64,000 nucleotides of DNA, taken from Leisingera aquaemixtae (GTDB taxonomy: Bacteria; Pseudomonadota; Alphaproteobacteria; Rhodobacterales; Rhodobacteraceae). Location of the stretch: NCBI RefSeq assembly GCF_001458395.1, contig NZ_CYSR01000022.1, positions 1-64,000 of the forward strand, written 5' to 3'. The translations under genes and the position numbers were made by a program. Below, piece by piece: positions 23,101-42,121 of this stretch (within the stretch, counting starts at the first letter, position 1; each line of letters starts with the position of its first letter). The notes under the pieces were generated by a model. It ran no database searches. It saw nothing but the letters and a program-made list of their open reading frames with translations, and was not told the DNA's origin.

Positions 23101-24645
<1,545 letters not shown>

Positions 24646-27286: not shown

Positions 27287-28456
27287 TCAGCCCTCTTCGG
27301 GCGGGTAGATCGCCACCCCGGTCAGGGTCTGGTTGACATGCATCGAGTTGATCTGCTCGCCATAGGTCGAAAAGCCCGCCACCCGGTTGTCGCGCAGGAT
27401 GCGGGAAATGTCCTGCGAGACCTGTTTCTGCTGCGCTTCCAGCCGCCGCAGGATGCAGTCGCAGGCCAGGATGATTTCGGGGCGGCCCTTGGCGCTGAGC
27501 GCGGCCATTTCGCGCTCCAGGTGAGTCACCATGTCCTCCGGCTCGGCCAGGGTCAGAACCACGCCCTCGTCGATGGCGGAGAAAAATACCAGCTCGTCAT
27601 TGTCGGCGACCCGCTGGATGGCGCGCACATGGTGCTGATCACCGAACTGCACGGCGACGGGATGCGCGGCAAAGGTAAAGGCGGTGAGCTGCTCCGGGTC
27701 TTTGCCCAGCACCCGCGCGTATTCGCGGGCGGCGGGTTCGGCATTGATTTCATGCACCACCCTGCGGGCCGGATCGGCCCCGGTCACCACCATGCGCTTC
27801 TGAGAGGGGATCAGGTGGTCGGTCTTGAAGACCTTGATCGGGCAGCGGCTGCGCACCTGGATCAGGATGGCAGCGTTGGAATGGGCCTGTCCGCCATGCA
27901 GCACATAGGTCTTGCCAAAGTTGGTGCCGTCACCCGCCGACCCGCCGAAAAAGGCCACCGGCCCCAGCCCCACCGACAGCTGCGAGGTCAGCGCGTCCTC
28001 CTTGGTGGAAAGCCCGTCGACCAGCAGGAAGGTAAAGTCTGAGATCCACCTGCCGGGCTCCTGCGCCATGTGGCTGCGGTTGCGGATCATCCGCTCGATC
28101 ACGCTGTGCGGATCGAAGCTGTCGAGGTCCTCGATCAGGATGGTGCGGGTCTGAAAATGCGATTGGGCAAAGCCGATGGCGACGATCTCGCCTTCGACAT
28201 AGCCGGCCGCTGAGATTTCTCCCGCAGAGGTGCAGCCGACAACCTGCGCCGGGGCAAACCGGCGCTGCGCCTCGTCGATCAGCCGCGCCACGTCGGTGTC
28301 CGGAGACAGAAACAGAACCACCAGCGAAAGGCCGTTCGGGTTCAGCGCCTGTGCCAGTTGTTCGACAGCGTCCGCCGCCCGGCAGTCAACCGAACCGGAC
28401 CGGACAACCTGCGGTTCCGCCATGGTTGCACCCGACGGGCCATGGACAGGGTCCAT
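27287..28456 (-). CDS. nosP: FIST-domain sensor protein (NosP-like)
   Basis: A 389-residue protein with FIST N- and C-terminal domains (VVGCTSAGEISAAGYVEGEIVA, FFGGSAGDGTNFGKTYV). NosP members of this family bind heme and sense nitric oxide, then act on an adjacent hybrid kinase. The gene is followed after 3 bp by such a kinase and preceded by a LuxR regulator. The start at 28456 has GGAGAAAGG upstream. FIST proteins can also bind small ligands such as amino acids, so the NO-sensing role is inferred from gene order and not shown by the sequence. Confidence 0.85.
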   Translation of the reverse strand: MDPVHGPSGATMAEPQVVRSGSVDCRAADAVEQLAQALNPNGLSLVVLFLSPDTDVARLIDEAQRRFAPAQVVGCTSAGEISAAGYVEGEIVAIGFAQSHFQTRTILIEDLDSFDPHSVIERMIRNRSHMAQEPGRWISDFTFLLVDGLSTKEDALTSQLSVGLGPVAFFGGSAGDGTNFGKTYVLHGGQAHSNAAILIQVRSRCPIKVFKTDHLIPSQKRMVVTGADPARRVVHEINAEPAAREYARVLGKDPEQLTAFTFAAHPVAVQFGDQHHVRAIQRVADNDELVFFSAIDEGVVLTLAEPEDMVTHLEREMAALSAKGRPEIILACDCILRRLEAQQKQVSQDISRILRDNRVAGFSTYGEQINSMHVNQTLTGVAIYPPEEG

Positions 28457-28489: not shown

Positions 28490-29185
28490 CTAGGCGGACG
28501 GCGGCGTGTCTTGCAAGACGTTTGCAAAACTCGCCTGCTTGGCGGCCAGCACCGCCTGGGTGCGGCTTTGCACGCCTAGCTTGCGCATGATGGCGGTGAT
28601 ATGGGCCTTTACCGTGGTCTCGGCGATCGACAGGTCATAGGCGATCTGTTTGTTCAGCTTGCCTTCGCAGATCAGCTGCAGGATCCGGGCCTGCTGGTTG
28701 GTCAGCTGCGACAGCCGCTGCAGGACGTCGTCGCTGCTGCCGGCGCTGTCTTCCAGCAGCACGTATCCGTCGGGCAGGAACACCTTGCCCTGGTTGATCG
28801 CCTCCACTGCCTTCTGGAACACGTCGCGCTGGCTGTGCTTGGGAATGAAGCCGTTGGCGCCGGCATGGATCACCGAGCTGACGATGCGGTTGTCGGCCAT
28901 GGAGGAGACCACCAGGATTGGGCAGTCCGTCACCTTGCGCAGGCGCAGCAGCCCGTCCAGCCCGTTGACGTCGGGCAGGTTCAGGTCCAGCACCACCAGG
29001 TCGATGCGGATTCCCCCGGCGATCATGTCGAGCGCAGCCTGCAGGGCCGGCGCAGTGTGCATGCTGCTGATCGCGGTCACCGCCTGCAAGGTCATCGCCA
29101 GAGCGTCACAGAACAGCGGGTGGTCATCCACCAGCAGCGCCGCATTGAACCCTGGGGTTTTCGGCGTGTCCGTGTGTGTCGGCAT
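28490..29185 (-). CDS. LuxR-type response regulator (ErbR/AgmR-like)
   Basis: A 231-residue response regulator. The receiver domain carries the phosphoacceptor in LVVLDLNLPDVNGL, and the C-terminal LuxR helix-turn-helix covers LTNQQARILQLICEGKLNKQ and the following helix. In Pseudomonas the NosP-NahK pair is next to ErbR (AgmR), which activates the quinoprotein alcohol dehydrogenase and pqq genes; here the regulator lies between nosP and the dehydrogenase. A TTG at 29224 would add 13 residues, but ATG 29185 is the more usual start. A copy of the regulon box lies 54 bp upstream of this start (29239-29258), suggesting autoregulation. Confidence 0.88.
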   Translation of the reverse strand: MPTHTDTPKTPGFNAALLVDDHPLFCDALAMTLQAVTAISSMHTAPALQAALDMIAGGIRIDLVVLDLNLPDVNGLDGLLRLRKVTDCPILVVSSMADNRIVSSVIHAGANGFIPKHSQRDVFQKAVEAINQGKVFLPDGYVLLEDSAGSSDDVLQRLSQLTNQQARILQLICEGKLNKQIAYDLSIAETTVKAHITAIMRKLGVQSRTQAVLAAKQASFANVLQDTPPSA

Positions 29186-29238
29186 ATCTGCACCAGAGCT
29201 GTTGTTTTCCTGCCAGCTTAGCAAGCGGGCAGCAGCAG

Positions 29239-29258
29239 CGGTATACGCCTAAAGTCGC
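29239..29258 (-). promoter_or_regulatory. Alcohol-regulon box upstream of the LuxR regulator
   Basis: Minus strand GCGACTTTAGGCGTATACCG. It shares GAC at positions 3-5 and ATACCG at the end with the boxes before exaF (31183-31202) and pqqA (40284-40303). Probable binding site of the ErbR-like regulator. Confidence 0.55.
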
Positions 29259-29267
29259 ATATGGAAG

Positions 29268-29291
29268 ACGCGCCTCCCGCAGGAGACGCGC
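29268..29291 (-). terminator. Probable terminator of the exaF-like gene
   Basis: Ten-base-pair stem ACGCGCCTCC/GGAGACGCGC read on the plus strand (29268-29277 with 29282-29291), with two wobble pairs in the minus-strand transcript and a 4-base loop. It lies 36 bp after the dehydrogenase stop and is followed by CTT only, so termination strength is uncertain. Confidence 0.5.
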
Positions 29292-29327
29292 CTGAGTTCA
29301 TTGCATTTACCTTCAGTCGGTGCGGGA

Positions 29328-31094
29328 TCAGTCCGCTTGCGCCAGTTGGCGGGGGAGGCGGAACGTCCAGACCATGCCGCCTTGGTTCAGGTAGTTGACC
29401 TTCTTGGCGACCTCGCCGCCCCACAGCGGCACCGCGCCGCCCCAGCCGGAGACGACAGAAACATACTGCACACCGTCCTGCTCCCAGGTAACCGGCTGGC
29501 CGACGATGCCGGAGCCGGTCTGGAACGACCACAGCTCCTCGCCGGTCTCGTCGTCGAAGGCGATGAAGCGGCCCTCGGGGGTGCCGGTGAACACCAGCCC
29601 GCCCGCGGTGGTCATCACCCCGGCCCAAAGCGGCGCGTCATTCTTGTATTCCCACTTGATCTCGCCGGTGTCCGGGTCGATCGCCTTCAGGCTTCCGATA
29701 TGGTCCTCGTAGTTCGGCTTGATGGTGAAGCCCGCGCCCAGGTAGGCGGCGCCCTTTTTGTAGCTGATCGGCTCGTTCCAGATATCCATGCCCCATTCGT
29801 TCGAAGGCACATAGAAGTTGCCGGTGTTCTGGGAGAACGCCATCGGCATCCAGTTCTTGCCGCCCAGGAACGACGGCGAGGCAAAGATCACCTCCCCCTT
29901 GTTGCCGTCGGCTGTATCCGCCGGGTTGCCGGGGCGGTTGTCCTCGTTGAACACCGGGCGGCCGGTCTCGTCGATGCGCTTGGCCCAGGTGATATCCTTG
30001 ACGAAGGGCGTTGCGCTGACGAACTTGCCGTCGTCGCGGTTCAGGACATAGAAGAAGCCGTTGCGGTCGGCGGTGGCGAAACGCTTGTTGCCGCTGCGGT
30101 CGGTGTAGGCGACCACCTCGTTGACGCCGTCATAATCCCAGCCCTCGCGCGGGGTGGTCTGGAAGTGCCACTTGATCTCACCGTTGGCGGGGTCGATACC
30201 GATGCGGCTGGCGGCATAGAGGTTGTCGCCCGCGTTGCCCTCGACCGGGGCGCCGGCGTTGCGCAGGTGGCTGTTCCAGGGCGCCGGGTTGCCCGCGCCG
30301 AAGACCAGCGTGTCGGTCTCCGCATCATAGGAGCCGCCGAGCCAGGTGGCGCCGCCGCCGGTCTTCCACATATCGCCCGGCCAGGTGGCATTCAGGGTGC
30401 CGGTCATGGTGCTGTCCTCACCCTTGAAGGTGCCCATGTGGCCCTCGATCACCGGCCGGGTCCAGACCAACTCGCCGGTTTCTGCGTCGCGCGCCTGCAC
30501 CTCGCCGACAATACCGAACTCGCCGCCGGAATTGCCGGTGATCACCAGCCCGTTGACGATCAGCGGTGCTGCGGTCATCGAATAGCCGGCCTTGTAGTCG
30601 GCCACCTTCTTGCGCCATTTCACGTCGCCGGTCTTGAGGTCCAGCGCCACGATGCGGGCGTCCAGCGTGCCGAAATAGAAGGTGTCGCCATAAATCGCAC
30701 CGCCGCGGTTCACCACGTCGCAGCAGGGCAGGATGCCTTCGGGCAGCCGGGCGTCGTACTGCCAGATCTCGCGGCCGGTCTCGACGTCGATGGCATAGAC
30801 CCGGCTGTAGGAGCCGGTGATATACATGATGCCGTCATAGATCAGCGGCTGGGTTTCCTGGCCGCGCTGCTTTTCGCCGCCGAGGCTGAAGGCCCAGGCG
30901 GGCACCAGGTTTGCGACGTTGTCCTTGTTCAGGGTATCGAGCGGGCTGTAGCGCTGCAGGTGCCGCCCCATCCCGTTGGTCACCACCTGGGTGGTGGTTG
31001 TCTGGTCATTCTTGAGATCGTCCTCGGTGACCCCGGCGTGGCTGACGCCCGCCATCATGGTCCCTGCGGCGACCGCCGCGATAAAGCGGTTCAT
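29328..31094 (-). CDS. exaF: PQQ-dependent alcohol dehydrogenase, lanthanide-type (ExaF/PedH-like)
   Basis: A 588-residue periplasmic quinoprotein. Residues 1-20 are a Sec signal ([20 protein letters not shown]). The eight-bladed propeller has PQQ-enzyme repeats such as [14 protein letters not shown] and [10 protein letters not shown]. The adjacent-cysteine disulfide is [10 protein letters not shown] (Cys124-125). The catalytic Asp is in [10 protein letters not shown] (Asp320), and Asp322 two residues later is the extra metal ligand that marks lanthanide-dependent enzymes; calcium types carry Ala or Ser there. [12 protein letters not shown] is typical of the ethanol-oxidising ExaA/ExaF group. 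Start 31094 has GGGAGGAAG upstream. Electrons should pass to the PedF-like cytochrome. Substrate: primary alcohols, exact range unknown. Confidence 0.92.
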
Positions 31095-31182
31095 TGGCTT
31101 CCTCCCTTTCGTTTGATCCTCAACAGCCACGGCCCGGTGCGGGCTGCCGGCTTGCCACAGTATTCAGCGCGCACCGGGCGGG

Positions 31183-31202
31183 CGGTATTGCACAATGGTC
31201 GT
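31183..31202 (-). promoter_or_regulatory. Alcohol-regulon box upstream of exaF
   Basis: Minus strand ACGACCATTGTGCAATACCG, 89 bp before the exaF start. It matches the pqqA box in 15 of 20 positions. Probable activator site. Confidence 0.6.
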
Positions 31203-31306
31203 ACGCGGGCGGCAGCCGGGGCGGGACGGCGGCGCAACGCGGCAGCGCCCGGCGCCTTGCGGCCCGGGTTTGCGGTGCATTTGCATACGGCGCGGTCAGG
31301 GGCCGC

Positions 31307-32107
31307 TCAGCCCGGTTTCCCAGCCTTGCGGATCAGCCCGCGCTCAGGGTCGTAGCCCCAGACTGCCAGCCCCAGCCAGACCAGCCCCGACAGCAGCACC
31401 CAGGCCAGCGCGGCGGCGTTCAGCTGCTGATAGAGCGCAAAGCGGATCAGCTCCACCGCCTGGCTGAAGGGGTTCACGGCACAGATGTCGCGCAGCAGCG
31501 CCGAGCTTTCGGCCATCTTCCACAGCGGGTAAAGCGCGGTGGAGAGAAAAAACATCGGGAAGATCACGAAATTCATCACCCCGGCAAAGTTCTCCAGCTG
31601 GCGGATCACCGAGGACAGCGCCAGCCCCAGCGCCCCCAGCATCAGCCCGGCGGGGACCAGGGCGGGCAGCAGTGCGGCATAACCGCCCCAGCTGAAGCGG
31701 ATGCCGAACAGCGCTGCCAGTCCCAGGAACACGTAGACCTGCAGGATCGAGATTGCGGTGCTGGCCAGCAGGCGGCAGACCAGCAGCCACCAGCGAGGCA
31801 GCGGGCTGGTCAGCAGCAGCCGCATTGAGCCCATCTCCCGGTCATAAACCATCGACAGCGAGCTTTGCATGCCGTTGAACAGCAGGATCATGCCGCACAG
31901 ACCCGGCACGATATAGACCTCGTAAGTGGTGTAGGTGGCATAGGGCGGGGTGATCGACAGTCCAAGCGCGGCGCGGAAACCGGCGGCAAAAACCACCAGC
32001 CACAGCATCGGCCGCACCAGCGCCGCGACAAAGCGGCCGCGCTGGCCGATGAACCGCAGCGCCTCGCGCTGTGTGATTGCCGTCAGGGCGGCCAGCCAGT
32101 CCATCAT
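31307..32107 (-). CDS. ABC transporter permease, PQQ alcohol-dehydrogenase-associated (PedC-like)
   Basis: A 266-residue ABC-2 type permease with about six membrane helices (PMLWLVVFAAGFRAALG, ILQVYVFLGLAALFG, AALAWVLLSGLVWLGLAVWG). It overlaps the upstream ATPase gene by 4 bp and is the last gene of a five-gene minus-strand operon whose composition equals that of the ped/exa-linked ABC systems. In Pseudomonas putida the PedABC transporter is needed for growth on phenylethanol, but whether it imports substrate, exports a product or handles a metal carrier is not settled. Confidence 0.88.
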   Translation of the reverse strand: MMDWLAALTAITQREALRFIGQRGRFVAALVRPMLWLVVFAAGFRAALGLSITPPYATYTTYEVYIVPGLCGMILLFNGMQSSLSMVYDREMGSMRLLLTSPLPRWWLLVCRLLASTAISILQVYVFLGLAALFGIRFSWGGYAALLPALVPAGLMLGALGLALSSVIRQLENFAGVMNFVIFPMFFLSTALYPLWKMAESSALLRDICAVNPFSQAVELIRFALYQQLNAAALAWVLLSGLVWLGLAVWGYDPERGLIRKAGKPG

Positions 32108-32823
32108 GCCGCCTCTCCCGTCAGCCTGAGAAAGTGATCCGCCAGCCCCAGCCCGCCGCGCAGCTGCCGGGCGGTGCCGTCCTCAGTCAGCCTGCCGCGG
32201 TGCAGGATCAGCAGCTGGTCGGCGTCGTCAATTTCGTCGGTCAGATGGGTGGCCCAAAGCACCGTCAGCCCCTTGCGCCGGGACAGGTCATGCACATGGG
32301 CGGTGATCGCGCGCCGGGTCGCCGCATCCAGCCCCACCGTTGGCTCATCCAGCAGCAAAACCTTGGGGTGGTGGATCAGGCTGCGGGCAATCTCCAGCCG
32401 GCGGCGGTGGCCGCCATTGAGGTCGCGCACCCTCTCGCCCAGCCGGCCGCGCATCTCCAGCCGCTCCAGCGCGGCCTCGATCCGGGCTTGCGCCCTGGCG
32501 CCGCGCAGCCCGTGCAGGGCCGCGAAATAGCTGAGGTTGCACTGCACCGTCAGGTCCAGGTCCAGTGTCGGCTGCTGGAACACCACCCCCATCTGCCGCA
32601 GCGCCTGGCGCGGGGCGCGGGCCATGTCGTGGCCTGCAATCCCGATCCTGCCCTGCGGCGCGGCGAACAGCCGGGTGAGCAGCGCAAACAGCGTCGACTT
32701 GCCCGCGCCGTTGGGGCCGAGCAGGGCGCAGAAGGTGCCGGGCTCAACCCGGAAGCTGACCCGGTCCAGCGCCTGCCGGGCACCGTAGGCATAGCTCAGG
32801 TTTTCCACCCGCAGCCCGGTCAT
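32104..32823 (-). CDS. ABC transporter ATP-binding protein, PQQ alcohol-dehydrogenase-associated
   Basis: A 239-residue ATPase. Walker A is LGPNGAGKST near residue 40, the Q-loop VVFQQPTLD, the signature LNGGHRRRLEIARSL (divergent from LSGGQ), Walker B VLLLDEPTVGLDA, and the H-loop LWATHLTDE. It overlaps the genes on both sides by 4 bp. The NGGHRRR signature is seen in the PQQ-associated subfamily. It energises the PedC-like permease. The overlaps on both sides point to production of a complete complex from one mRNA. Confidence 0.9.
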   Translation of the reverse strand: MTGLRVENLSYAYGARQALDRVSFRVEPGTFCALLGPNGAGKSTLFALLTRLFAAPQGRIGIAGHDMARAPRQALRQMGVVFQQPTLDLDLTVQCNLSYFAALHGLRGARAQARIEAALERLEMRGRLGERVRDLNGGHRRRLEIARSLIHHPKVLLLDEPTVGLDAATRRAITAHVHDLSRRKGLTVLWATHLTDEIDDADQLLILHRGRLTEDGTARQLRGGLGLADHFLRLTGEAA

Positions 32824-33278
32824 TGGATGGTGATCTCCAGCCGCTGGGTATCGCCGGTGGAGCCGGGCACCTTGAGATGGTATTTCCCAGGCTTCAGCGC
32901 GATGAAGCCGATCTCCATCTCGCCCGCCTCGTCGAATTCGATACTGTCGAGTCCCAGCGGGCGGATCTCAAGGCCCTCCACCACGATCTCGTCGATCCAA
33001 ACCGCGCGGAAGAACTCCGCGCCCGTCAGCGCCAGCTCCTGGCTGCCGTCGCCCTGGATCTCGAACTCGTAATAGGTGCCGGATTTCAGCACCCAGGGCG
33101 CCTCGGCCAGCGGCATCCCCGCCGACAGGGTGATGGGCGGCAAGTCCTCCTTGTTGCTGGCGGACAGCAGCCCGGCGAGGCCGAGGCCGGCCTTGCCCGG
33201 ATCATCATCGTCACCAGCCAGGGCGACTGCGGGCAGCGCCAGGCACAGCGCCACGGCAAAAAGGCGGGAGTTCAGCAT
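32820..33278 (-). CDS. Hypothetical periplasmic protein of the ped-type operon
   Basis: A 152-residue protein with a Sec signal peptide (about 1-21, ending ALA) followed by an Asp-rich start GDDDDPG. The rest is predicted mostly beta-stranded (GTYYEFEIQGDGSQELALTG, LKPGKYHLKVPG) and ends in a strand like those of small cupredoxin-type sandwiches, but no Cys/His/Met copper site is visible. It sits between the beta-propeller protein and the ATPase, overlapping the latter by 4 bp. It is probably a periplasmic accessory of the ABC system; no function is known to me. Confidence 0.8.
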   Translation of the reverse strand: MLNSRLFAVALCLALPAVALAGDDDDPGKAGLGLAGLLSASNKEDLPPITLSAGMPLAEAPWVLKSGTYYEFEIQGDGSQELALTGAEFFRAVWIDEIVVEGLEIRPLGLDSIEFDEAGEMEIGFIALKPGKYHLKVPGSTGDTQRLEITIQ

Positions 33279-33327
33279 CGGAGATCCTCCTGTCTGGATG
33301 CGCCGCGCCGCCGGGGCGCGGCAGGTC

Positions 33328-34302
33328 TCAGGGGCGCAGCGCCGCGCCCCAGGGAAAACGGCCGACCTTGATCGACTTCAGCGCCTGGCGCTTGGCGGTG
33401 TCGATCACGGTCACATCGCCGGACACGCCGTTGGTGGTGAACAGCAGCGACTTGTCGGGGGAAAACGCCATGTGCCAGACCCGGCGGCCAACCAGGATGT
33501 AATCCTCCACCTCCAGCGTCTCCGCATTGACCACCGCCACATGGTTGGAAGGACCCAGCGCCACAAAGGCGGTCTTTTCATCTTCGGTGAAGGCAAACCC
33601 CACCGGCTGCACGCGGTCGGGGTGCACGCCTTTGACAGCAAAGGCGATCTTGCCGGTCTCGGTCTGGGTGGCGGTGTCAAAGACGGTGATGGTGCCGCCA
33701 ATCTCGGAAGAGACCCACAGCGCGCTGCCGCCGGCGGTGAATTCGGCGTGGCGGGGCCGGGCGTCGACCAGCGTGTTGGCAAACAGCTGTTGCGTTTCCG
33801 TGTCGATCCAATGCGCCATGTTGGTGGTCTCGGAAGTGGTGATGGCGATCCTGCCATCTGGCGAGACGGCCATGCCCTCGGGCTCGATCCCGACGTTGAT
33901 CTGGGCGACCACCTTGCGGGTTTCCGTGTCGACCACTGTGGTCACGGCGTCGTCCTCGTTCGCGATGTAAAGATGCCGGCCGTCGGGATGCAGCACGAAC
34001 TGCTCGGGATCCTCGCCCGAGGGCAGCTCGTGCAGGATCTCGCCGGTGGCGGCATCCAGAACTTGAACCGTGTCGCTGTCGGAGGCGCAGACGTAGACCC
34101 GCGAGAAATCCTTGGAAAAGGTGATCCCGCGCGGCCGCTCCCCGGTTGCGATTGTGCGGACCACCTCCAATGTGGCGATGTCGATCACGCTGATGGTGTC
34201 GTCCTTCTCGTTGGTGACCCAGATTTCCTGGGCATCAAGGGGTGCGGTGGCCAGCAGCGCCGGCAAGGCCAGCGCGGCGAGGGGTTTTGCAGAAAATGTC
34301 AT
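33328..34302 (-). CDS. PQQ-catabolism-associated YVTN beta-propeller protein
   Basis: A 324-residue secreted protein. A signal peptide of about 24 residues ends at DAQE. Seven-blade YVTN-type repeats follow (IWVTNEKDDTISVIDIATLE, VYVCASDSDTVQVLDAATGE, LYIANEDDAVTTVVDTETRK). Such proteins are regular members of quinoprotein alcohol-dehydrogenase clusters together with the ABC components on either side. Role unknown; the propeller could scaffold other periplasmic proteins or bind a ligand. The start overlaps the stop of the binding-protein gene. Confidence 0.9.
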   Translation of the reverse strand: MTFSAKPLAALALPALLATAPLDAQEIWVTNEKDDTISVIDIATLEVVRTIATGERPRGITFSKDFSRVYVCASDSDTVQVLDAATGEILHELPSGEDPEQFVLHPDGRHLYIANEDDAVTTVVDTETRKVVAQINVGIEPEGMAVSPDGRIAITTSETTNMAHWIDTETQQLFANTLVDARPRHAEFTAGGSALWVSSEIGGTITVFDTATQTETGKIAFAVKGVHPDRVQPVGFAFTEDEKTAFVALGPSNHVAVVNAETLEVEDYILVGRRVWHMAFSPDKSLLFTTNGVSGDVTVIDTAKRQALKSIKVGRFPWGAALRP

Positions 34303-35459
34303 TGGAAGGCTCCGCAGCGGCTTTCGGGTTCATCAAGGCCCAGGGTGTCAAGTTCGCTGTGCTGGTGCAGGAAACCGGGCAAGGGTGCCTGCGCTGCCAG
34401 CGCGCGGGGAGTGGCAAGCGGGATCGGCTGGCGCAGCTGACCGTTCCAGCTGCGGTAACTGAGCGGGCGGCCCTTGAAACCCGCCAGCTCGAACGCGTCC
34501 GACAGCAGGTATTGGCGCAGGACGTCCGCGTCGGCTGAGCCGGTGCGGGTCACAGCCTCGCCGATGCTGCGCACCGCGGCCCAGGCGGCGTAGTCCCGCG
34601 CCAGCATCTTGCGCCCGGCCAGATCGTGGAACCGCGATTGCAGCTGCGCGGCGCCCCATTGCTCGACCACCGGCGCCCAAGCGGTTGGCACCAGGCCCTC
34701 GGAGCCGGCAACCGGCCGCGGCAACCAGGTGTTGTATGGAAGGTATCGGGCGAAATCCTGCAACTCGTCGGCGACCAGCAGCAGGTCATGGCGGCCCAGT
34801 CCCTGCGACAGCAAGGGCACCTCCTGGGCGGCGTTGCGGCGCATGTCGGCGCCATAGTCCCAGGTCTGCTCAGCGGCGATTTCCAGCCCGAACTTGGCGG
34901 CGCTCTGGCGCAGGGCAGCGGCAAAGGCCTGGTCCTGCGGGTGGCTGCCGGAGATCAGCGCGAGGCCGGTCCAGCGCTTGGTCAGCGCAAACTGCATCAG
35001 CGCATCGCTGCGCATCAGGTCCGAGGGCAGAGTGTGCAAGAGGTTGCGGCGGCAGTCGCCGCTGCGCAGGCCGGTGTCCGGGCTGGCGGTGTTGAACAGC
35101 AGCGCTTCCTCCGCCTCCGGCAGGGCGGCGGCAGCCAGCAGCGCCGGCTTGGGCGCATCGAGGATCAGCAGCGCGCTGCGGCTCAGCGCCGCGCGCGCCG
35201 CCGCGGCAAAATCGCCGCCCGGCGGTACCGCCACCGTCTCCAGGCTGTAGCTGTGGCCAAGGAAGCTGCCGGTGGTCCGGTTGTCGGCCAGCCCCAGCCG
35301 GGCGCCGGTTTCGCCCAGGTCCGCGGGCTGCGGGTCGAGATTGGAAAGGGTGGGGGGCTGCTGTTCCTGCTGCTTCAGGTAGATGACCGGCACCTCAAGC
35401 CCGGCGGCGGCAAGGGCGGCGGGGCAAAGGGCCATCAGGAGTGTGATCAGGAAGCGCAT
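34299..35459 (-). CDS. ABC transporter substrate-binding protein, PQQ alcohol-dehydrogenase system
   Basis: A 386-residue periplasmic protein of the branched-chain-amino-acid-binding (type I) fold. The signal peptide is MRFLITLLMALCPAALA. SHPQDQAFAAALRQSAAKFG and LAFDT-like hinge regions (LLFNTASPDTGLRSGDC) match the binding proteins of ped-type ABC systems. It is the first gene of the five-gene operon. The start at 35459 gives a proper signal peptide; earlier in-frame starts would precede it with a non-signal stretch. A regulon box lies at 35515-35534. Ligand unknown. Confidence 0.85.
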   Translation of the reverse strand: MRFLITLLMALCPAALAAAGLEVPVIYLKQQEQQPPTLSNLDPQPADLGETGARLGLADNRTTGSFLGHSYSLETVAVPPGGDFAAAARAALSRSALLILDAPKPALLAAAALPEAEEALLFNTASPDTGLRSGDCRRNLLHTLPSDLMRSDALMQFALTKRWTGLALISGSHPQDQAFAAALRQSAAKFGLEIAAEQTWDYGADMRRNAAQEVPLLSQGLGRHDLLLVADELQDFARYLPYNTWLPRPVAGSEGLVPTAWAPVVEQWGAAQLQSRFHDLAGRKMLARDYAAWAAVRSIGEAVTRTGSADADVLRQYLLSDAFELAGFKGRPLSYRSWNGQLRQPIPLATPRALAAQAPLPGFLHQHSELDTLGLDEPESRCGAFQ

Positions 35460-35514
35460 GGGGGCACCCGGTTCTGGCTGCATGGGCCGAGCGTACTGCC
35501 GCCCAGAGGCCCGC

Positions 35515-35534
35515 TGCCATTGGACCAAGGTCGT
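35515..35534 (-). promoter_or_regulatory. Alcohol-regulon box in the ABC operon/pedF divergent promoter
   Basis: Minus strand ACGACCTTGGTCCAATGGCA, 56 bp before the ABC operon start. It is nearly identical to the box before the NosR-like gene (40253-40272, 17 of 20). A weaker related sequence CAACTTAAGTCGCGTATCGG (35555-35574) points toward pedF. Confidence 0.55.
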
Positions 35535-35629
35535 AGGCCGCCTGCGCGGTTCTCCAACTTAAGTCGCGTATCGGGGCAGGGGCCGGGCTGGCTATGCTTT
35601 CGGCAAGCACAAACTTACGGGAGGAACTC

Positions 35630-36307
35630 ATGTTCAAATTGCCTTTTGCGGCCCTCGGGCTCGCGGCTCTTGCCACAGCGGCGCTTGCCCACGGAGACGT
35701 CGCGCCGCAGCCGGTGAATACCGATGCCCTGCCCGATGTGGGCGAGGAATGGCTGACAGAAAATCCCTATCGCGGCCAGGAGGCGGAGGTCTGGCAGGCG
35801 GCGATTGACATTGGCGGCAGCGGCTACACCCAGAACTGCGCCCGCTGCCACGGGCTGGGCGGCGTTTCTGGCGGGCTGGCGCCTGACCTGCGTTACCTGG
35901 AGGCGGAGGAGATGGGCGACGAGTGGTTCGTCGAACGCTTCCGCACCGGTTACACCCAGAACGGCATCACCAAAATGCCCGCCTTCGGGGAGCTGCTGGG
36001 CCAGAAGGCCGCCTGGGCGATACGCACTTATCTGGAAACCCGGCCCGATGATGGCGCTCTGGACGAGGCCACCGGCCGGCTGCTGGAGATCCGCGACGAA
36101 CTGACGTCCCTGGCCAGCGGCGGCGGCGGTGATGCGGCGGCGCTGCAGGCAGAGCTTTCGGAAATCGCGGAGGGTGTCGAAACCGGCTCCGGCGCCCCGG
36201 TCGCTGACAGCGCGGCCTACCGGGCGGCAAGCCTGATCGGCGGCGCGCAGCCGGACTTTGCCGGGGCTGCGGAGGCCCTGACTGTCGGCCTCTCGGCGGC
36301 GCATTAG
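35630..36307 (+). CDS. pedF: Cytochrome c-550, PedF-like
   Basis: A 225-residue periplasmic c-type cytochrome. Signal peptide residues 1-21 end at ALAHG. One heme-binding CxxCH motif is in NCARCHGLGG near residue 80, and the axial methionine is probably in GITKMPAFGELLG. The C-terminal 80 residues are an Ala/Glu/Gly-rich tail. Cytochromes of this type accept electrons from ethanol-oxidising quinoproteins. The start 35630 has CGGGAGGAA upstream. It is divergent from the ABC operon and followed after 18 bp by a XoxJ-like gene. Confidence 0.88.
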   Translation: MFKLPFAALGLAALATAALAHGDVAPQPVNTDALPDVGEEWLTENPYRGQEAEVWQAAIDIGGSGYTQNCARCHGLGGVSGGLAPDLRYLEAEEMGDEWFVERFRTGYTQNGITKMPAFGELLGQKAAWAIRTYLETRPDDGALDEATGRLLEIRDELTSLASGGGGDAAALQAELSEIAEGVETGSGAPVADSAAYRAASLIGGAQPDFAGAAEALTVGLSAAH

Positions 36308-36325
36308 GGCGGAGGGCGGCGGCAC

Positions 36326-37228
36326 ATGAGACAGCAACTGGCCGGTTTCCTTACGATTGCGGCGCTGGCCTGCGGCTGGGCGCAGGCCGGGCAGACCCGC
36401 TGTGCGGACCACGTGCCGCAGCCCAAGCCGCAGAACGCCTCGCGCGACATTGTCGGGCAGGACTTGGAGGCCATCCTTGAGCGCGGCTTCATCACCTTTG
36501 CGGCCTATGAGGAGTTTTCCCCCTGGTCCTACGAGGAGGCGGGCCGCATCAAAGGCGCCGACATCGACCTCGCCCGGCTGATTGCTGCGGAGCTGGGGGT
36601 CGAGGCCCGGTTCACCCTGGTCGCGGCGGGCGAAAATCTGGACGCGGACCTGCGCAACTGGATCTGGAAAGGACCGGTCGTGGGCGGCAGCGTTGCCAAC
36701 GTCATGCTGCATGTGCCCTATGACAGCGAATTTGCCTGCCGGGTCGAACAGGTTGTGTTCACCGGCCAGTACCACGTCGAGGAGGTCGCCATCGCCTACC
36801 GCCGCGACGCCTATCCCGAAGACCCGCCACTGCCCGCCTATTTCCGCTTCGACAGCGTCGCGGTGGAGAATGATTCCATCGCCGACTTCTACCTTTCAGC
36901 CTTTCCCGGCGGCCAGCTGAGCGGCAATATCCGCCGTTACCCGACGGCGGCGGCGGCAATGGCAGGCCTGGACCGGGCCGAAACCAAGGCCGCGATGGGG
37001 CCGCTGGCGCAGCTGGAGGCCGGGCTGACCGCGCAGACCGCCGTCCACACGCCGCCTTTGCCCGGCTTCTCCGCGGGCACCTGGACCGCCGGGGTGGCGG
37101 TGCATTTTTCCTACCGCCCGCTGGCCTATGCGGTAGAAGATGCCATTGCCGCCGCGCTGCAGGATGGCCGGATTGCCGCCATCTTTGCGGCCCACGGCCT
37201 CAGCCACCGTCCGCCTGAGCTGCGCTGA
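36326..37228 (+). CDS. xoxJ: Quinoprotein-associated periplasmic binding protein (MoxJ/XoxJ-like)
   Basis: A 300-residue secreted protein with a family-3 solute-binding fold. The signal peptide ends near AQAG. KGADIDLARLIAAELGVEAR and the WIWKGPVVGGSVANVMLHVP segment are typical of the MoxJ-like proteins linked to methanol and lanthanide dehydrogenases, in which the protein helps to activate the apo-enzyme. No ABC permease of the matching class is adjacent, which supports a chaperone role over transport. It forms a two-gene unit with pedF. Function by analogy with XoxJ; not proven for ethanol-type enzymes. Confidence 0.87.
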   Translation: MRQQLAGFLTIAALACGWAQAGQTRCADHVPQPKPQNASRDIVGQDLEAILERGFITFAAYEEFSPWSYEEAGRIKGADIDLARLIAAELGVEARFTLVAAGENLDADLRNWIWKGPVVGGSVANVMLHVPYDSEFACRVEQVVFTGQYHVEEVAIAYRRDAYPEDPPLPAYFRFDSVAVENDSIADFYLSAFPGGQLSGNIRRYPTAAAAMAGLDRAETKAAMGPLAQLEAGLTAQTAVHTPPLPGFSAGTWTAGVAVHFSYRPLAYAVEDAIAAALQDGRIAAIFAAHGLSHRPPELR

Positions 37229-37234
37229 TCCTTC

Positions 37235-38140
37235 TTATCCCAGCGTTTTTTGGCTGCCGTCCTGCGCCAGCAGGGTAACGCTGGTGCCGCCCGGAAGGCG
37301 CGCCAGCGCGGCACTGATTTCACGTTCAGTCATCAGGCAGAAGGCGGTGGAGGCCGCATCCGCCAGCGCGGCGCTTCCGGCCTCGGTGCTGACGGTCGCC
37401 CATAGCGGCCGCCGGTCACGCGCGGGGTGCAGGATATGCGCCGCACCCTGCAGCCGCAGCGCGCCGGGGCTGGAGGTGGCGATGGCGCGGCCGGTCAGGC
37501 TGCGGATGGCAAAGGCGCCGTGGTCCGGATCGGCGAGCCCGATGCGGAACGGTCCGCCGAGGGCAGCAAACTCGCCGGCGTTGACCAGAACCCGCTCCAG
37601 CCCCAAACGGCCAAGCGCGGCGCGGACCATGCCGGTGGCATAGCCCTGGGCAATGCCATTGAAGGTCAGCGCCTGGCCCGGCGCCAGCCGGATTTCCCGT
37701 GCCGTCACCGACACCTTGTGCCAGCCGGTGAGGCGGGCAGCCGCGCGGACACCGCCGCCGCCGTGCGCCAGCGCCTGCCAAAGCGGCTGCACCGAGGGGT
37801 CGAACACTCCCGCTGTTGCCGCGTGCACCCGGGTGCAGAGCCGGGCCAGATCCAGAAACGGCGGCGGCGGGTTCTTCAGAACCCCGGTCCGGTTCAGCCG
37901 CGACAGCGCGGAGGCCGGATCGTAGAGGCTGAACAGCTGTTCGGCCTGCAGCAGCTGCGACAGCGCGGCGGCAATTGCCCGGTCTGCCAGCGGCGGCGGC
38001 GCATGGATGGTCAGGCGCGCCTCGGCGCCCAGGGCAAACCCCTGCCAGGTGACGGGCGCGGCCCGCGCCGCCGGAGCCGCGCCTCCAAGGGCGGCGGCAG
38101 AGATTGCCAGGAACCGGCGGCGGGTCAGTTCGGCGCTCAT
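37235..38140 (-). CDS. apbE: FAD:protein FMN transferase (ApbE family)
   Basis: A 301-residue protein with a twin-arginine-like leader (RRRFLAISAAALGGAAPAARA), placing it in the periplasm. NGIAQGYATGMVRAALG and VNAGEFAALGG are the FAD-binding segments, and DAASTAFCLM the metal-binding Asp/Thr motif. ApbE enzymes attach FMN covalently to a Ser/Thr in target proteins. The gene overlaps the downstream end of the NosR-like gene, whose FMN_bind domain has a fitting threonine, so that protein is the obvious client. It is convergent with xoxJ, 6 bp away. Confidence 0.92.
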   Translation of the reverse strand: MSAELTRRRFLAISAAALGGAAPAARAAPVTWQGFALGAEARLTIHAPPPLADRAIAAALSQLLQAEQLFSLYDPASALSRLNRTGVLKNPPPPFLDLARLCTRVHAATAGVFDPSVQPLWQALAHGGGGVRAAARLTGWHKVSVTAREIRLAPGQALTFNGIAQGYATGMVRAALGRLGLERVLVNAGEFAALGGPFRIGLADPDHGAFAIRSLTGRAIATSSPGALRLQGAAHILHPARDRRPLWATVSTEAGSAALADAASTAFCLMTEREISAALARLPGGTSVTLLAQDGSQKTLG

Positions 38141-40221
38141 TCCGCGGCCTCCAGCTGCTGTTTCTTGCGCGCCGACAGGATCAGCGGCACGCAGCGGGAC
38201 GGGTCATCGTGGATCGACACGCAGTCGAGGCAGCCGAAGCATTCGTCATAGCGGACCGCGCCGGATGGTTTGATCGCGCCATAGGCGCATTTCACCCGGC
38301 ACAGCTGGCAAGGGCTGCCGCAGGCGGCGCGCCGGGCGATCCAGTTGCGCCGCCGCAGCAGCCCGCCTGCCGCCATGGCCGCGCCCAGCGGGCACAGGTA
38401 GCGGCAGAAGGGCTTGAACAGCACCAGCCCCGCCGCCAGCCAGAAAACGGCGTAGGCTGTGAAATACCATTCGCGCAGGAAATAGGTGGTGATCGCGGTC
38501 TTGAAGGGTTCGACCTCCGCCGCGGTGTCCACATGCGCAGGCGCCAGGAAGACCAGCGAAACCAGCCCGGCCAGTGCGCCGTATTTCAAGTACCTGAGCC
38601 GCCCGTCCCAGGCCGGCGAAAGGCCCGTTTGCGGCACGCCCAGCCTGCGGCCCAGATGGTGGGCGAACTCTTGTAGCGCGCCAAACGGGCACAGCCAGCC
38701 GCAGAACAGGGCCCGCCCCCACAGCACCAGCCCGAGGATGGCAAAACCCCAGATCAGCAGCGAAAACGGGTCGTAGGCGAGAAAGGCAAAGCTGCCGCCC
38801 TCGGCCGTGGCGCGCAGCACGCCAAGAACGGTGACGATGGACAGCTGGCCCTGGCCCCACCAGCCGATGAACAGAGTGACAGCCGCCAGCACAGTCAGCC
38901 GCAGCGGGGTCAGGGTCTTGCGGGCGGCGATCCGGCTTTGGGCCAGCAGCAGTGCGGCGGTCAGCGTGGTCAGCAGCACGCCCAGCACGATCAGGTCCGT
39001 GCGGCGGCTGCGCAGTGCCTCCAGCCAGGGCGGCACCGGCGCCGGCGCCTCGGCCCGCAGGAAAAAGCGTTCGGGGGTCCGGTGGGTGACAGGGAATTCC
39101 ACGGTGCCGGTTTCGGGCTGGAACATGCCGTGCGCACGCATCGCTTGGGCGTGCAGGGTCCACGCCTGCGCCGGGTCAAAGCCGAGGCGGCGGTCGGCCC
39201 GCAGGATCATTGCCGTGCCGTCGTGCAAAGGCTCGGGCAGATCCGGCGACAGCTCGACCAGCAGGTCGCTGTCGCGCAGCGCCACCGGCAGGCCGTTCTG
39301 CGTTGCAAACACCCGGTCCGGCGCGGTGTTGCGGATGAACTCCGGGCTGACCAGCCCGTGGCGGCCGGTCTCAATCAGCAAGAGCGGCTCATCATCGGGG
39401 GAGATCGCCAGGAACTCCTGCAGCTCGTCGTAACCGTCGCGCGACAGTGCCGCCTGTGCAATTGACGGCGGCCCGAGGTCGATGATCCAGAGATCCAGAT
39501 AGGGCGCCTCGGGGTGCTGCTGCGCCTCCGGATCGTCATCAGCCCAGAGGGTGCCGGCGAAGGCCGCGTCGACCTCCGCATTGGAGACGGTGGCGCGGGT
39601 GGCCAGCCCCTGATCCACCAGCGCCGCCCAGTCCAGCGGCTCGCTGTGGTCCGGGTCCGGCCGGGCCGGGGGGGCGGCGATGACGCCATGCATCTTCTCC
39701 CGCGCGACCGCCAGCGCCGCGGCCATCACCGAGTCATGCGCGATCCGCACCGACGCGGTCGCCTTGCTCACCCCGTCGAGATAGACCAGCGATGAGCCGG
39801 AATCTGTCTCGCCATAGGGGGTGCCGACGGTGATCGCCGAAAAGACCGACAGGCCGGGATACTGCTCGAAGAACCTGTGGAACGGGGCCGGGCCAAGCCC
39901 GGAGACAAAGACCGGCTCGTTATGGCTGATCAGCCGGACATCCAGAAAATTGCCGTCCAAGTCCAGCAGCACCAGCACGTTGACCGGCGCGCCGGAAAAC
40001 CCGGGCAGGGGGGCAAGGGGTTCGGTTTCAAAGGCATAGCCAGCCTCCGCCCCGCCGGAGTTGAGCAGGGTATAGACGCCCTTGCCGTTCACCGGCTCCC
40101 CCAGGGAGAACGGCGGCATGATCAGAGCGCTGATCTGCTCGCGCGGCAATGGGGACGCCGCCAGAACGCTGGCCGCAAACAGCCAAGCCTGAAGCCAGAG
40201 TATGAACCGGGATACGCGCAT
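38137..40221 (-). CDS. NosR-like membrane flavo-iron-sulfur protein
   Basis: A 694-residue protein built like NosR: signal peptide, periplasmic FMN-binding domain (flavinylation motif DGVSKATASVRI, residues 149-160, probable Thr155), a second soluble region, about five or six membrane helices (LIVLGVLLTTLTAALLLAQ, LTVLAAVTLFIGWWG), then polyferredoxin-type segments FCGWLCPFGALQ and FCRYLCPLGAAM and two [4Fe-4S] sites in CQLCRVKCAYG and CFGCLDC. NosR passes electrons from the quinol pool to periplasmic nitrous oxide reductase, but no nosZ is in this window. Its gene, with apbE, lies inside the alcohol-oxidation cluster and shares the regulon box with pqqA. Role here unknown: possibly a membrane redox conduit for the quinoprotein system. 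Confidence 0.87.
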   Translation of the reverse strand: MRVSRFILWLQAWLFAASVLAASPLPREQISALIMPPFSLGEPVNGKGVYTLLNSGGAEAGYAFETEPLAPLPGFSGAPVNVLVLLDLDGNFLDVRLISHNEPVFVSGLGPAPFHRFFEQYPGLSVFSAITVGTPYGETDSGSSLVYLDGVSKATASVRIAHDSVMAAALAVAREKMHGVIAAPPARPDPDHSEPLDWAALVDQGLATRATVSNAEVDAAFAGTLWADDDPEAQQHPEAPYLDLWIIDLGPPSIAQAALSRDGYDELQEFLAISPDDEPLLLIETGRHGLVSPEFIRNTAPDRVFATQNGLPVALRDSDLLVELSPDLPEPLHDGTAMILRADRRLGFDPAQAWTLHAQAMRAHGMFQPETGTVEFPVTHRTPERFFLRAEAPAPVPPWLEALRSRRTDLIVLGVLLTTLTAALLLAQSRIAARKTLTPLRLTVLAAVTLFIGWWGQGQLSIVTVLGVLRATAEGGSFAFLAYDPFSLLIWGFAILGLVLWGRALFCGWLCPFGALQEFAHHLGRRLGVPQTGLSPAWDGRLRYLKYGALAGLVSLVFLAPAHVDTAAEVEPFKTAITTYFLREWYFTAYAVFWLAAGLVLFKPFCRYLCPLGAAMAAGGLLRRRNWIARRAACGSPCQLCRVKCAYGAIKPSGAVRYDECFGCLDCVSIHDDPSRCVPLILSARKKQQLEAAE

Positions 40222-40252
40222 GGCTGGCAGTCTGCCGAGGGGCGCGCCTGCG

Positions 40253-40303
40253 TGCCATTGGACCAAAGTCTGAGGCTGCCCCTACGACCAAAGGCCAATA
40301 CCG
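40253..40303. promoter_or_regulatory. Divergent promoter of the NosR-like gene and pqqA with two regulon boxes
   Basis: Minus-strand box CAGACTTTGGTCCAATGGCA (40253-40272) faces the NosR-like gene; plus-strand box ACGACCAAAGGCCAATACCG (40284-40303) faces pqqA, 55 bp before its start. The two are copies of the element also found before exaF, the ABC operon and the LuxR gene. TAGGCT at 40322-40327 may be the pqqA -10 box. Confidence 0.6.
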
Positions 40304-40358
40304 GGGCCAGGGGCGGGCAGCTAGGCTGAAGGGATCAAAGCCAGCAAAGGAGGATGCA

Positions 40359-40466
40359 ATGGCCTGGTCTGCCCCGAAACTGAAAGAAATCAACTGCGGC
40401 ATGGAAATCAACATGTACTCCCCGTCCGAGGACGAGGGCCGCGAATACGAACCCGATCTGTTCTGA
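40359..40466 (+). CDS. pqqA: PqqA, precursor peptide of the PQQ cofactor
   Basis: A 35-residue peptide starting MAWSAPKLKE. The crosslinked residues are Glu16 and Tyr20 in CGMEINMY, exactly the E-x3-Y spacing and numbering of known PqqA peptides. Those two side chains become the PQQ skeleton. A strong ribosome binding site AAAGGAGG lies at 40346-40353. The C-terminal tail (SPSEDEGREYEPDLF) is longer and more acidic than the 23-24-residue PqqA of Klebsiella. It is easily missed because of its size. PqqB follows after 21 bp. Confidence 0.95.
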   Translation: MAWSAPKLKEINCGMEINMYSPSEDEGREYEPDLF

Positions 40467-40487
40467 TCGCCTAACAGGAAAACGGCC

Positions 40488-41372
40488 ATGCGGTTTCTGG
40501 TTCTTGGCGCGGCAGCGGGCGGCGGCCTGCCGCAGTGGAATTGCGGCTGCCGGAACTGCCGGGACGTGCGTCTCGGCAGGATCGCTTCCGCCACCCAGTC
40601 CTCGCTTGCCGTGACACTGGACGGGCAGAACTGGGCGGTTTTGAACACCTCTCCCGACATCCGTGTTCAGTTGCAGAACTGCCCGTCCATGCACCCGCAG
40701 TCGCTGCGCCACAGCCCGCTGCGCGCAGTGCTGCTGACCAATGGCGACATTGACCACATCGCGGGGCTGCTGTCCTTGCGGGAGCAATCGCCGTTTTCCC
40801 TGTTCGCCACGTCCGGCCTCTTGGATGTGCTGGCGTCCAACCCGGTGTTCAACGCCCTTCCGGCGGCTGTCGGCCGCAACCCGGTGCGGTTGAGCGAGGG
40901 CTTCGAGCTGCTTCCGGGCCTGCAGGCAACGGTCTTCGCGGTGCCCGGCAAGGTGCCGCTGTTCCTGGAAGGCGGGCAGGTAGAGACGGATCTGTTGGGC
41001 GAGCAGACCGTCGGCGTCCGGCTGAGCGACGGCACGAAAACCGCCTATTACATCCCCGGCTGTTCCGCTGTCTCCGCCGAATTGCTGGAGATACTGGCAG
41101 ATGCCGATCAGATCTTCTTTGACGGCACGCTCTGGCACGATCAGGAGATGATCCAGAGCGGGACGGGGACCAAGACTGGCCAGCGAATGGGGCATATCTC
41201 CATCAGCGGCCCCCAAGGCTCCATCGCCAGCTTGCGGAGTGTGGATGCCGCCAAGACCTTCATTCACATCAACAACACCAATCCCGTCTGGCAGCCCGGC
41301 AGCGCCGAGCGCGCGCAGGTGCTGGCCGCCGGATGGACAATTGCAGCGGATGGGATGGAGATCGCCCTATGA
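40488..41372 (+). CDS. pqqB: PqqB, PQQ biosynthesis metallo-hydrolase
   Basis: A 294-residue protein of the metallo-beta-lactamase fold. It begins MRFLVLGAAAGGGLPQWNCG, the PqqB signature, with CxCxxC-like cysteines (CGCRNC) at the N-terminal metal site. LLTNGDIDHIAGLLSLRE is the metal-binding loop, in which the first histidine of HxHxDH is replaced as usual for PqqB. PqqB hydroxylates the tyrosine-derived intermediate. The stop overlaps pqqC (ATGA). Confidence 0.97.
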   Translation: MRFLVLGAAAGGGLPQWNCGCRNCRDVRLGRIASATQSSLAVTLDGQNWAVLNTSPDIRVQLQNCPSMHPQSLRHSPLRAVLLTNGDIDHIAGLLSLREQSPFSLFATSGLLDVLASNPVFNALPAAVGRNPVRLSEGFELLPGLQATVFAVPGKVPLFLEGGQVETDLLGEQTVGVRLSDGTKTAYYIPGCSAVSAELLEILADADQIFFDGTLWHDQEMIQSGTGTKTGQRMGHISISGPQGSIASLRSVDAAKTFIHINNTNPVWQPGSAERAQVLAAGWTIAADGMEIAL

Positions 41373-42121
41373 ATGCCTACCCCCGGGAAATGCCCGCCAC
41401 AGAGCCGCTTGAGGCCCGCCTGCGCGCCATCGGCGCGGCGCGCTACCACGATAAGCACCCGTTTCACCACAGGCTGCACGGCGGGGAGTGTTCGCCGGAC
41501 GAGGTCCGCGCCTGGGTGATCAACCGCTGGGCCTATCAGGCGGCGATCCCGATGAAGGACGCGGCCTTTCTGTCCCGCTGCGCCAATCCCGCCATGCGCC
41601 GGGCCTGGCGCAGCCGGATCGAAGACCATGACGGCGGCATCAGCGAGGGCGGCGGCATCCGCCGCTGGCTGCGGCTGGCTGAAGCGGTCGGGCTGGATCC
41701 CGACTACGTGGCCTCCGGCCGGGGCGTGCTGCCGGCCACCCAATTCGCTGTCGACGCCTATATCCGCTATGTCCGCGACATGCCGCTCCTGCAGGCGGTG
41801 GCCTCGTCTCTGACGGAACTCTTTGCCCCCTCCATCCACGAACGGCGAATCGAAGGCCTGCTGCAGCACTACGATTTTGCCAATGCCGCCAGCCTGTCCT
41901 ATTTCCGCAAACGGCTGACTGAGGCGCCGAAAGACGTGAAATTCGGCCTGGCCTGGGTGCTGGAGAAGGCCAACAACCCGGAAAAGGAAGACGCCGCCTG
42001 CGAGGCGCTGATCTTCAAGACCAATGTCCTGTGGGCGCAGCTGGATGCGCTTTGGGGCGCCTATGTTGAGCCGGGGCGGATCCCGCCGGGCGCCTGGCAG
42101 CCGGGCGAGGGGCTGGCATGA
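41369..42121 (+). CDS. pqqC: PqqC, pyrroloquinoline-quinone synthase
   Basis: A 250-residue all-helical oxidase that catalyses the last ring closure and eight-electron oxidation to PQQ. Conserved segments are [40 protein letters not shown] and RIEDHDG. Length and motifs are those of stand-alone PqqC. ATGA overlaps on both sides couple it to pqqB and pqqD. Confidence 0.97.

Follow-up and report, generated by a model that had tools for sequence, protein, structure and literature searches.

The 64,000-nt window considered here, that is, the whole stretch of contig NZ_CYSR01000022.1 of the Leisingera aquaemixtae genome (4.61 Mb) that was analyzed, carries a cluster of genes for alcohol oxidation dependent on pyrroloquinoline quinone (PQQ), in which a 20-bp box recurs upstream of one gene or operon after the other. 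The box is very likely the operator through which a response regulator encoded in the same cluster activates the alcohol-oxidation promoters. The genes concerned, with the profile matches by which they were named, are the following:

23050-24645, plus strand: ExaC-type aldehyde dehydrogenase (NF050026, 906 bits, cut-off 900)
25082-27283, minus strand: hybrid histidine kinase, NahK/ErcS-like (matches under the curated cut-offs)
27287-28456, minus strand: NosP-like FIST protein, its gene flanked by those of the regulator and the kinase (NosP model, 409 bits, cut-off 450)
28490-29185, minus strand: NarL/LuxR-type response regulator, the presumed binder of the box (receiver PF00072 and GerE PF00196, both over cut-off)
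29328-31094, minus strand: PQQ alcohol dehydrogenase (TIGR03075; adjacent Cys pair and DYD motif)
31307-35459, minus strand: ATP-binding cassette (ABC) operon for a permease, an ATPase, a 152-amino-acid protein, a beta-propeller, and a substrate-binding protein (TIGR03861, TIGR03864, TIGR03866, TIGR03863)
35630-37228, plus strand: cytochrome c550 PedF and a second periplasmic binding protein (TIGR04494; PF00497)
37235-40221, minus strand: NosR-like protein and ApbE (NF046105, 435 bits, cut-off 1000; PF02424)
40359-43487, plus strand: pqqABCDE (profile matches)

The boxes found in the window are given below, with the −10-like hexamer behind each of them and the score obtained with a matrix of 317 sites of relatives:

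22966-22985, plus strand: box of the ExaC-like aldehyde dehydrogenase gene, AGGACTTTGGTCGAATACCG, 64 bp before the gene; −10 TAAGCC at 23004-23009; 17.5 bits
29239-29258, minus strand: box of the regulator gene (luxR), palindrome at 29244-29259; −10 TAAGCT at 29215-29220; 18.1 bits
31183-31202, minus strand: box of the PQQ alcohol dehydrogenase gene (exaF type); −10 AATACT at 31159-31164; 24.9 bits
35515-35534, minus strand: box of the ABC/beta-propeller operon; −10 TACGCT at 35490-35495; 24.3 bits
35554-35573, plus strand: weaker box of pedF (cytochrome c550); −10 TATGCT at 35593-35598; 14.1 bits, and 7.8 bits in a partial model match
40253-40272, minus strand: box of the NosR-like/ApbE pair; −10 CAGACT at 40229-40234; 19.4 bits
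40284-40303, plus strand: box of pqqABCDE; −10 TAGGCT at 40322-40327; 24.6 bits

With the same matrix, a position within pqqC at 42016 reached 16.3 bits and so outranked the pedF site; this match is probably due to chance.

Five of these 20-mers, those of luxR, exaF, the ABC operon, nosR, and pqqA, had been reported in a preliminary description of this DNA, and all were recovered in the places and on the strands reported there. As had been claimed, GAC is kept at positions 3-5 in all five and CAAT at positions 13-16 in four, and the boxes lie 30-125 bp before the start codons, the edge-to-start gaps being 53 bp for luxR, 88 bp for exaF, 55 bp for the ABC operon, 31 bp for nosR, and 55 bp for pqqA. 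Each of the five faces its own gene. When a matrix made from the five sites was run over both strands of the window, the boxes scored 20.8-24.7 bits; the next-best position was 22966-22985 on the plus strand (21.8 bits), and the following one scored 12.8 bits. Upon leaving out each site in turn, 5 or 6 of the 127,962 positions on both strands reached the score of the left-out site, a tally that includes this site and the four training sites and hence leaves at most one other position. The five 20-mers are beyond chance. The list of five promoters was incomplete: the strong sixth box, before the aldehyde dehydrogenase gene, and the weaker seventh, before pedF, had been missed.

Training of a sequence model (R1) used 79 sites of other genera that scored 9 or more and had their −10 at the usual place; since the sites were picked for just this feature, the −10 columns of R1 are biased. 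In the 4.6-Mb genome, where 150 of 511 candidates were scored, R1 placed the pqqA, exaF, regulator, and ABC sites of the window at ranks 1-4 (25.5-15.3 bits) without having been trained on any Leisingera site, the pqqA box being its top match at 25.5 bits. The position at rank 5 (13.4 bits, contig C30) was rejected as a regulon site; it lies within an integrase-like frame, named by eye. An exact search with the 14-base core of the box gave four matches in the genome, three of them in the window. When up to one mismatch was allowed, 12 places were found versus 13 for a reversed control, which is background level. Four of the 12 are located in the window and the eight outside all fall within open frames of at least 80 amino acids on either strand, so that a genome-wide regulon was rejected; two of the outside places do have a frame that begins 40-42 bp further along, a distance too short to accommodate the −10 at its usual spacing. 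Within the reach of these searches, the L. aquaemixtae regulon consists of this cluster.

The preliminary description had made its proposal depend on conservation of the box upstream of orthologous operons, and such conservation was observed outside Leisingera. The loci examined were 80 named ones that encode a relative of the ABC binding protein and ranked highest among 508 confirmed; three Leisingera loci were excluded from the counts, leaving 77. At a threshold of at least 9 bits with the five-site matrix, the box was present upstream of exaF in 63 of 68 loci, of the ABC operon in 64 of 77, of pedF in 68 of 76, of the NosR-like gene in 35 of 49, of pqqA in 9 of 13, and of the regulator gene in 13 of 43. 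The six control classes gave 2/76 (second binding protein), 0/44 (ApbE), 1/42 (FIST), 3/27 (kinase), 4/77 (propeller), and 3/60 (permease). The ABC and pedF counts are not independent because one divergent intergenic region is common to both, and pqqB (7/11 at 9 bits) was counted neither for nor against, since the sequence ahead of it includes the pqqA promoter. With a lenient 5-bit cut, applied after refinement on the same sequences, the counts rose to 67/68 (exaF), 75/77 (ABC), 75/76 (pedF), 48/49 (NosR-like), 13/13 (pqqA), and 39/43 (regulator). Unseeded expectation-maximisation from random starts gave the box as its top motif for the promoter sets of exaF, pedF, NosR, and the regulator and, reversed, for the ABC set. 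A chance likeness picked by eye from a GC-rich window would agree with the way in which the sites were chosen and with the background-level count of the core, but the leave-one-out ranks, the unseeded rediscovery, and the conservation outside the genus leave this explanation a negligible probability.

The extension of control to the NosR/ApbE pair, also part of the preliminary description, is supported, because the box recurs upstream of NosR-like genes but rarely upstream of control genes. The regulon is wider than had been claimed, as pedF, the aldehyde dehydrogenase gene in Leisingera, and, in many relatives, the form II cox genes have to be added. The box of the aldehyde dehydrogenase gene was also found in L. 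thetidis (L290) and in one other genus (L192, 26.5 bits). Its wide conservation was rejected, since no more than 10.2 bits was reached in ten other loci with upstream sequence (eight lacked upstream sequence).

The box is an imperfect 7-2-7 inverted repeat, TACGACC-WW-GGTCGTA, which starts one base ahead of the 20-mer first reported. The pooled consensus of the 317 sites of relatives is T-N-C-G-A-C-C-W-W-R-G-T-C-S-N-A-T, and their symmetry is maximal at the 7-2-7 centre (box position 7.5), with a mean of 3.75 of 7 pairs versus 2.51 at the next-best centre scanned. In the individual window boxes, 3-5 of the 7 half-site pairs match. Dimers of the NarL family recognise 7-2-7 sites whose outer bases are TAC...GTA. 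The operators of NarL and NarP (TACYNMT) have the same tail-to-tail heptamers, 2-bp gap, and outer TAC...GTA, while the inner GACC/GGTC of the present box is different. The near-palindrome scores on the opposite strand too, in 28 of 49 NosR loci and, for the coxG genes discussed below, in 17 of 42 regulator-positive and 1 of 30 regulator-negative genomes and in 24 of 38 loci with coxG in the cluster.

In the window sites a −10-like hexamer follows 18-19 bp past the 20-mer. The same spacing was seen in the 317 sites, which had been selected by the box alone, without regard to the −10: TANNNT starts at box positions 38, 39, and 40 in 23, 77, and 65 of them (165/317 together), and at the neighbouring positions 37, 41, and 42 in 0, 5, and 1. 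A looser [TA]ANNNT is present at 39 or 40 in 55.8 % of the sites, versus a mean of 1.5 % and a maximum of 2.8 % at the control offsets 20-36. This spacing puts the centre of the box near −43, overlapping the −35 position, a geometry from which we infer class II activation, as expected of a NarL-family activator. The near-constant distance to the −10 and the orientation toward the gene would also fit an extended −35 element of an alternative sigma factor, with no activator involved; the two-fold 7-2-7 symmetry, the co-occurrence with a response regulator, and the sigma-70-like TANNNT form that the −10 retains make this most improbable.

In the two divergent promoter pairs, ABC/pedF (35515-35573) and nosR/pqqA (40253-40303), the boxes are separated by 19 and 11 bp, which makes a side-by-side seating of two dimers possible. 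At the NosR-like gene (40221-40234), the −10 lies about 7 bp ahead of the ATG, so that transcription would start at or beside the start codon, and the mRNA is possibly leaderless. The median box-to-start distance of NosR-like genes in relatives, the starts being inferred from alignments, is 51 bp and consistent with the layout in the window.

The presence of the regulator was examined in 149 genomes of Rhodobacteraceae, one per genus, with a regulator being called above 220 bits. It was found in 48 of them, two of the matches carrying an in-frame stop (G501 and G475), and seven more genomes gave lower scores. Of the 30 genomes with an exaF-type enzyme (at least 79 % identity), 29 have the regulator, versus 19 of the 119 others (Fisher p = 5e-17); the one without a match, G538, is an assembly that is 73 % complete. 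In a search of each genus with R1, in which 41 candidates were scored per genome under stricter filters, box matches with an expectation value (E) of 0.05 or better were obtained in 17 of 48 regulator-positive and in 1 of 94 negative genomes, again G538 (p = 1.5e-8). A further 22 genomes had a box match with E between 0.05 and 0.3, of which 14 were regulator-positive and eight negative.

The response regulator at 28490-29185 is, as judged from sequence, the likely binder of the box. The preliminary description had predicted the site of an ErbR-like regulator: the attribution to the LuxR-type regulator is borne out by the co-occurrence, the 7-2-7 layout, and the sites at its own promoter, with binding itself being a prediction, and the name ErbR-like is fair by the neighbouring genes. 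Another member of the NarL family, an ErdR-like or EraR/PedR2-like paralogue, might bind the box instead and the neighbouring regulator gene merely be one of the targets. The top NCBIfam match of the regulator is indeed ErdR (NF041830), under the cut-off (153.5 versus 390 bits), the best three paralogues in its own genome are 26-33 % identical to it, and ErdR of P. aeruginosa is said to control genes including agmR, according to the part of the source available (PMC9927353). Against this stand the limited likeness of the nearest of these paralogues (33 % identity) and the finding that the box, also at coxG promoters distant from the gene for the regulator, tracks the presence of this very regulator; control by another regulator is accordingly improbable. 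A separate clade of cox-type regulators was rejected, cox-linked and exaF-linked regulators being mixed in one tree (one row was omitted from it). The 11 regulators from regions with cox and without exaF required seven label changes in that tree versus a mean of 10.5 for shuffled labels and are thus still more clustered than by chance labelling.

For the response regulator of the cluster the following mode of action is proposed. A phosphorylated dimer would sit on the two TACGACC half-sites flanking the 2-bp A/T spacer, at about −43 over the −35 position, and activate, in the class II manner, promoters that have retained their −10. The NahK-like hybrid kinase, together with the NosP-like FIST protein, might relay the signal, the cue probably being an alcohol or aldehyde. 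One signal could in this way switch on the dehydrogenase, pqq, pedF, the ABC system, NosR/ApbE, the aldehyde dehydrogenase, and the operon of the regulator itself, and in many relatives the same switch may also drive the form II genes coxG-S-L-M. The outcome is a testable operator consensus and a proposed regulon for PQQ-dependent alcohol oxidation in roseobacters, the NosR/ApbE pair included.

The form II genes came up in 29 regions around box matches of other genomes, in which the genes behind the boxes were identified by visual inspection of the initial residues (for L171, the assignment followed the best-scoring site and not the model match). Nine boxes were followed by exaF, six by a NosR-like gene, six by a CoxG-like gene, and one each by pqqA, an aldehyde dehydrogenase gene, an ABC protein gene, and pedF; four were unassigned or due to chance. 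In L191, the only region in which the full gene order was read, CoxG (PF06240) heads an operon G-S-L-M. The motif AYRGAGR of form II carbon monoxide (CO) dehydrogenase was present in 12 of 20 regions, taken from 19 regulator-positive genomes without an exaF-type enzyme, and the motif AYXCSFR in none of them; across the 80 named loci, AYRGAGR occurred 32 times and AYXCSFR not once. The best models for the L191 subunits were those of glyceraldehyde dehydrogenase, all under cut-off (large subunit, 634 bits), and the large subunit did not reach the cut-off of the aerobic CO dehydrogenase model TIGR02416 either (628.6 versus 991 bits).

The coxG promoters had not been part of the training set of the box. 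A box of at least 12 bits, mostly 60-90 bp ahead of coxG, was present in 25 of 42 regulator-positive genomes versus 1 of 30 sampled negative ones (G538; p = 3e-7). The test comprised all 42 regulator-positive genomes with coxG and 30 of about 79 negative ones, which were taken for high coxG scores with G426 passed over; genomes with a weaker regulator match were kept outside it, and three of these that were looked at scored 12.2, 8.9, and −5.2 bits. By position, with adjacency set by hand from coordinates, the box was found at 19 of 27 coxG genes near the regulator and at 6 of 15 elsewhere. Among the 80 named loci, 38 have coxG no more than 300 bp from the gene for the second binding protein, and 30 of these 38 have a box of at least 12 bits. 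A Ruegeria pomeroyi strain (L066) and a Litoreibacter (L062) are examples of roseobacters whose exaF and coxG share a cluster. CoxG-like genes as such were matched in 125 of the 149 genera. We hold with good confidence that form II coxG-S-L-M belongs to the alcohol-oxidation regulon of this regulator in the family.

Several observations weigh against the reading of the box as the regulator's operator or against the generality of its extension to coxG. The nosR, pedF, and aldehyde dehydrogenase boxes of the window are absent from the genome matches of R1 among the 150 candidates scored, and the box of the regulator gene is degenerate in many genomes, as its count at 9 bits given above indicates. 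The −10 is at the expected spot in just 3 of 75 pedF promoters. Two Paracoccus plasmids have sites of at least 13 bits before pedF and none before the PQQ dehydrogenase gene. G538, an incomplete assembly without a regulator match, has a box at both exaF and coxG. The genomes are not independent, and as the regulator often adjoins its targets, part of the co-occurrence may reflect inheritance of a single cluster. For coxG genes not adjacent to the regulator, the comparison taken alone (6/15 versus 1/30 negative) gives p = 0.003, and 17 of the 42 regulator-positive genomes stay under 12 bits at coxG. L. aquaemixtae itself has form II cox genes without a box, namely coxSLM (contig C40), a second AYRGAGR gene (C36), and coxG (C10).

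In the parts of the papers available, the role of form II CO dehydrogenase is called unclear (PMC13203968), CO is said to be perhaps not its substrate (PMC6794299), and only roseobacters having both forms are reported to oxidise CO (PMC10675870), a statement that leaves room for a role of form II in CO oxidation. The genes discussed here share with form II coxSLM the AYRGAGR motif and, in L191, the order G-S-L-M, and differ in standing under the box of an alcohol regulator. This gives a concrete hypothesis on the substrate: the form II enzyme could be a molybdenum aldehyde oxidase, not a CO dehydrogenase, taking the aldehyde made by the PQQ alcohol dehydrogenase, a view that we consider evenly balanced. 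If it is correct, surveys in which form II coxL is taken as a measure of CO oxidation potential could in fact be tallying aldehyde oxidation. The main value of the box is as a pointer to form II cox. A link between form II cox and PQQ-dependent alcohol oxidation was not found in the open-access literature as far as its text was available; subscription papers may describe one.

By operon layout, the nearest described systems are AfdRTS and RfdRTS of Rhodobacter sphaeroides and FlhRS of Paracoccus denitrificans, in which, according to the available part of the source, the regulator and kinase genes flank a third one and the targets are genes of formaldehyde and methanol metabolism (PMC4776306). 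The window shares with AfdRTS, RfdRTS, and FlhR-orf2-FlhS this position of a third gene and the control of C1/alcohol oxidation, and the third gene of these systems may likewise encode a FIST protein. They are described as controlling adhI, flhA-fghA, mxa, and mau, and the regulon predicted here comprises exaF, pqq, pedF, the ABC operon, NosR/ApbE, and, in relatives, form II cox. No binding consensus for them was found in that part of PMC4776306. AgmR/PedR1/ErbR (PA1978) of Pseudomonas, which is described as an activator of the ped cluster and pqq and is encoded beside NosP (PA1975) and NahK/ErcS' (PA1976), resembles the present regulator, in a comparison by neighbouring genes only, in having a FIST protein and a hybrid kinase as neighbours and PQQ alcohol dehydrogenase and pqq as targets; the word "consensus" does not occur in the available text of that paper (PMC12997753). 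An operator site for this regulator was likewise not found in the accessible portions of PMC8879981, PMC6115532, PMC11996626, PMC5934484, and PMC4344238, nor an operator consensus for this family in the open-access literature as far as available; subscription papers, e.g., on adhI or flh promoters, may describe one.

As to the other proteins of the cluster, the DYD motif is a mark of lanthanide-dependent alcohol dehydrogenases, and the PQQ alcohol dehydrogenase is probably lanthanide-dependent. The proteins of the ABC operon belong to families of the "PQQ-dependent alcohol dehydrogenase system." The 152-amino-acid protein (32820-33278) is without a Pfam or NCBIfam match; in many of the 80 loci its gene recurs at the same place, flanked by those of the propeller and the ATPase. 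The cut-off of the NosR transcriptional regulator model NF046105 was not reached, and the protein is NosR-like only; about 50 of the 80 loci have such a gene close to ABC/pedF, in many cases accompanied by ApbE. This pair may carry electrons in alcohol oxidation and not in nitrous oxide reduction. Two plasmids of Paracoccus, one of Sulfitobacter, and one of L. thetidis (L288-L291) carry the regulator and FIST genes together with pedF and PQQ dehydrogenase, and a kinase gene adjoins three of these four clusters.

Outside the family, pedF was matched in 28 genomes, and pedF regions, 20 in all, were examined from 20 of them. Strong boxes were present in six, all from the same class as the window (best 18.1-26.5 bits), the best box of one of them (L147) not being ahead of a recognised target. 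Ten of the 20 regions had no convincing box on first inspection, though one of them, L160, gave a variant in a later search. An unseeded search in 13 regions from other classes of the phylum ranked a start-codon sequence, and not the box, first; a diverged TACTACC-like form is present in at least four of these 13. A weak TACTACC variant was seen in four pedF regions of other classes (11.1-14.8 bits). In L141, L142, L146, and L150, all from other classes of the phylum, the TACTACC-like variant lies upstream of pedF and is in some cases followed by ACCAAAG or CCAAAG.

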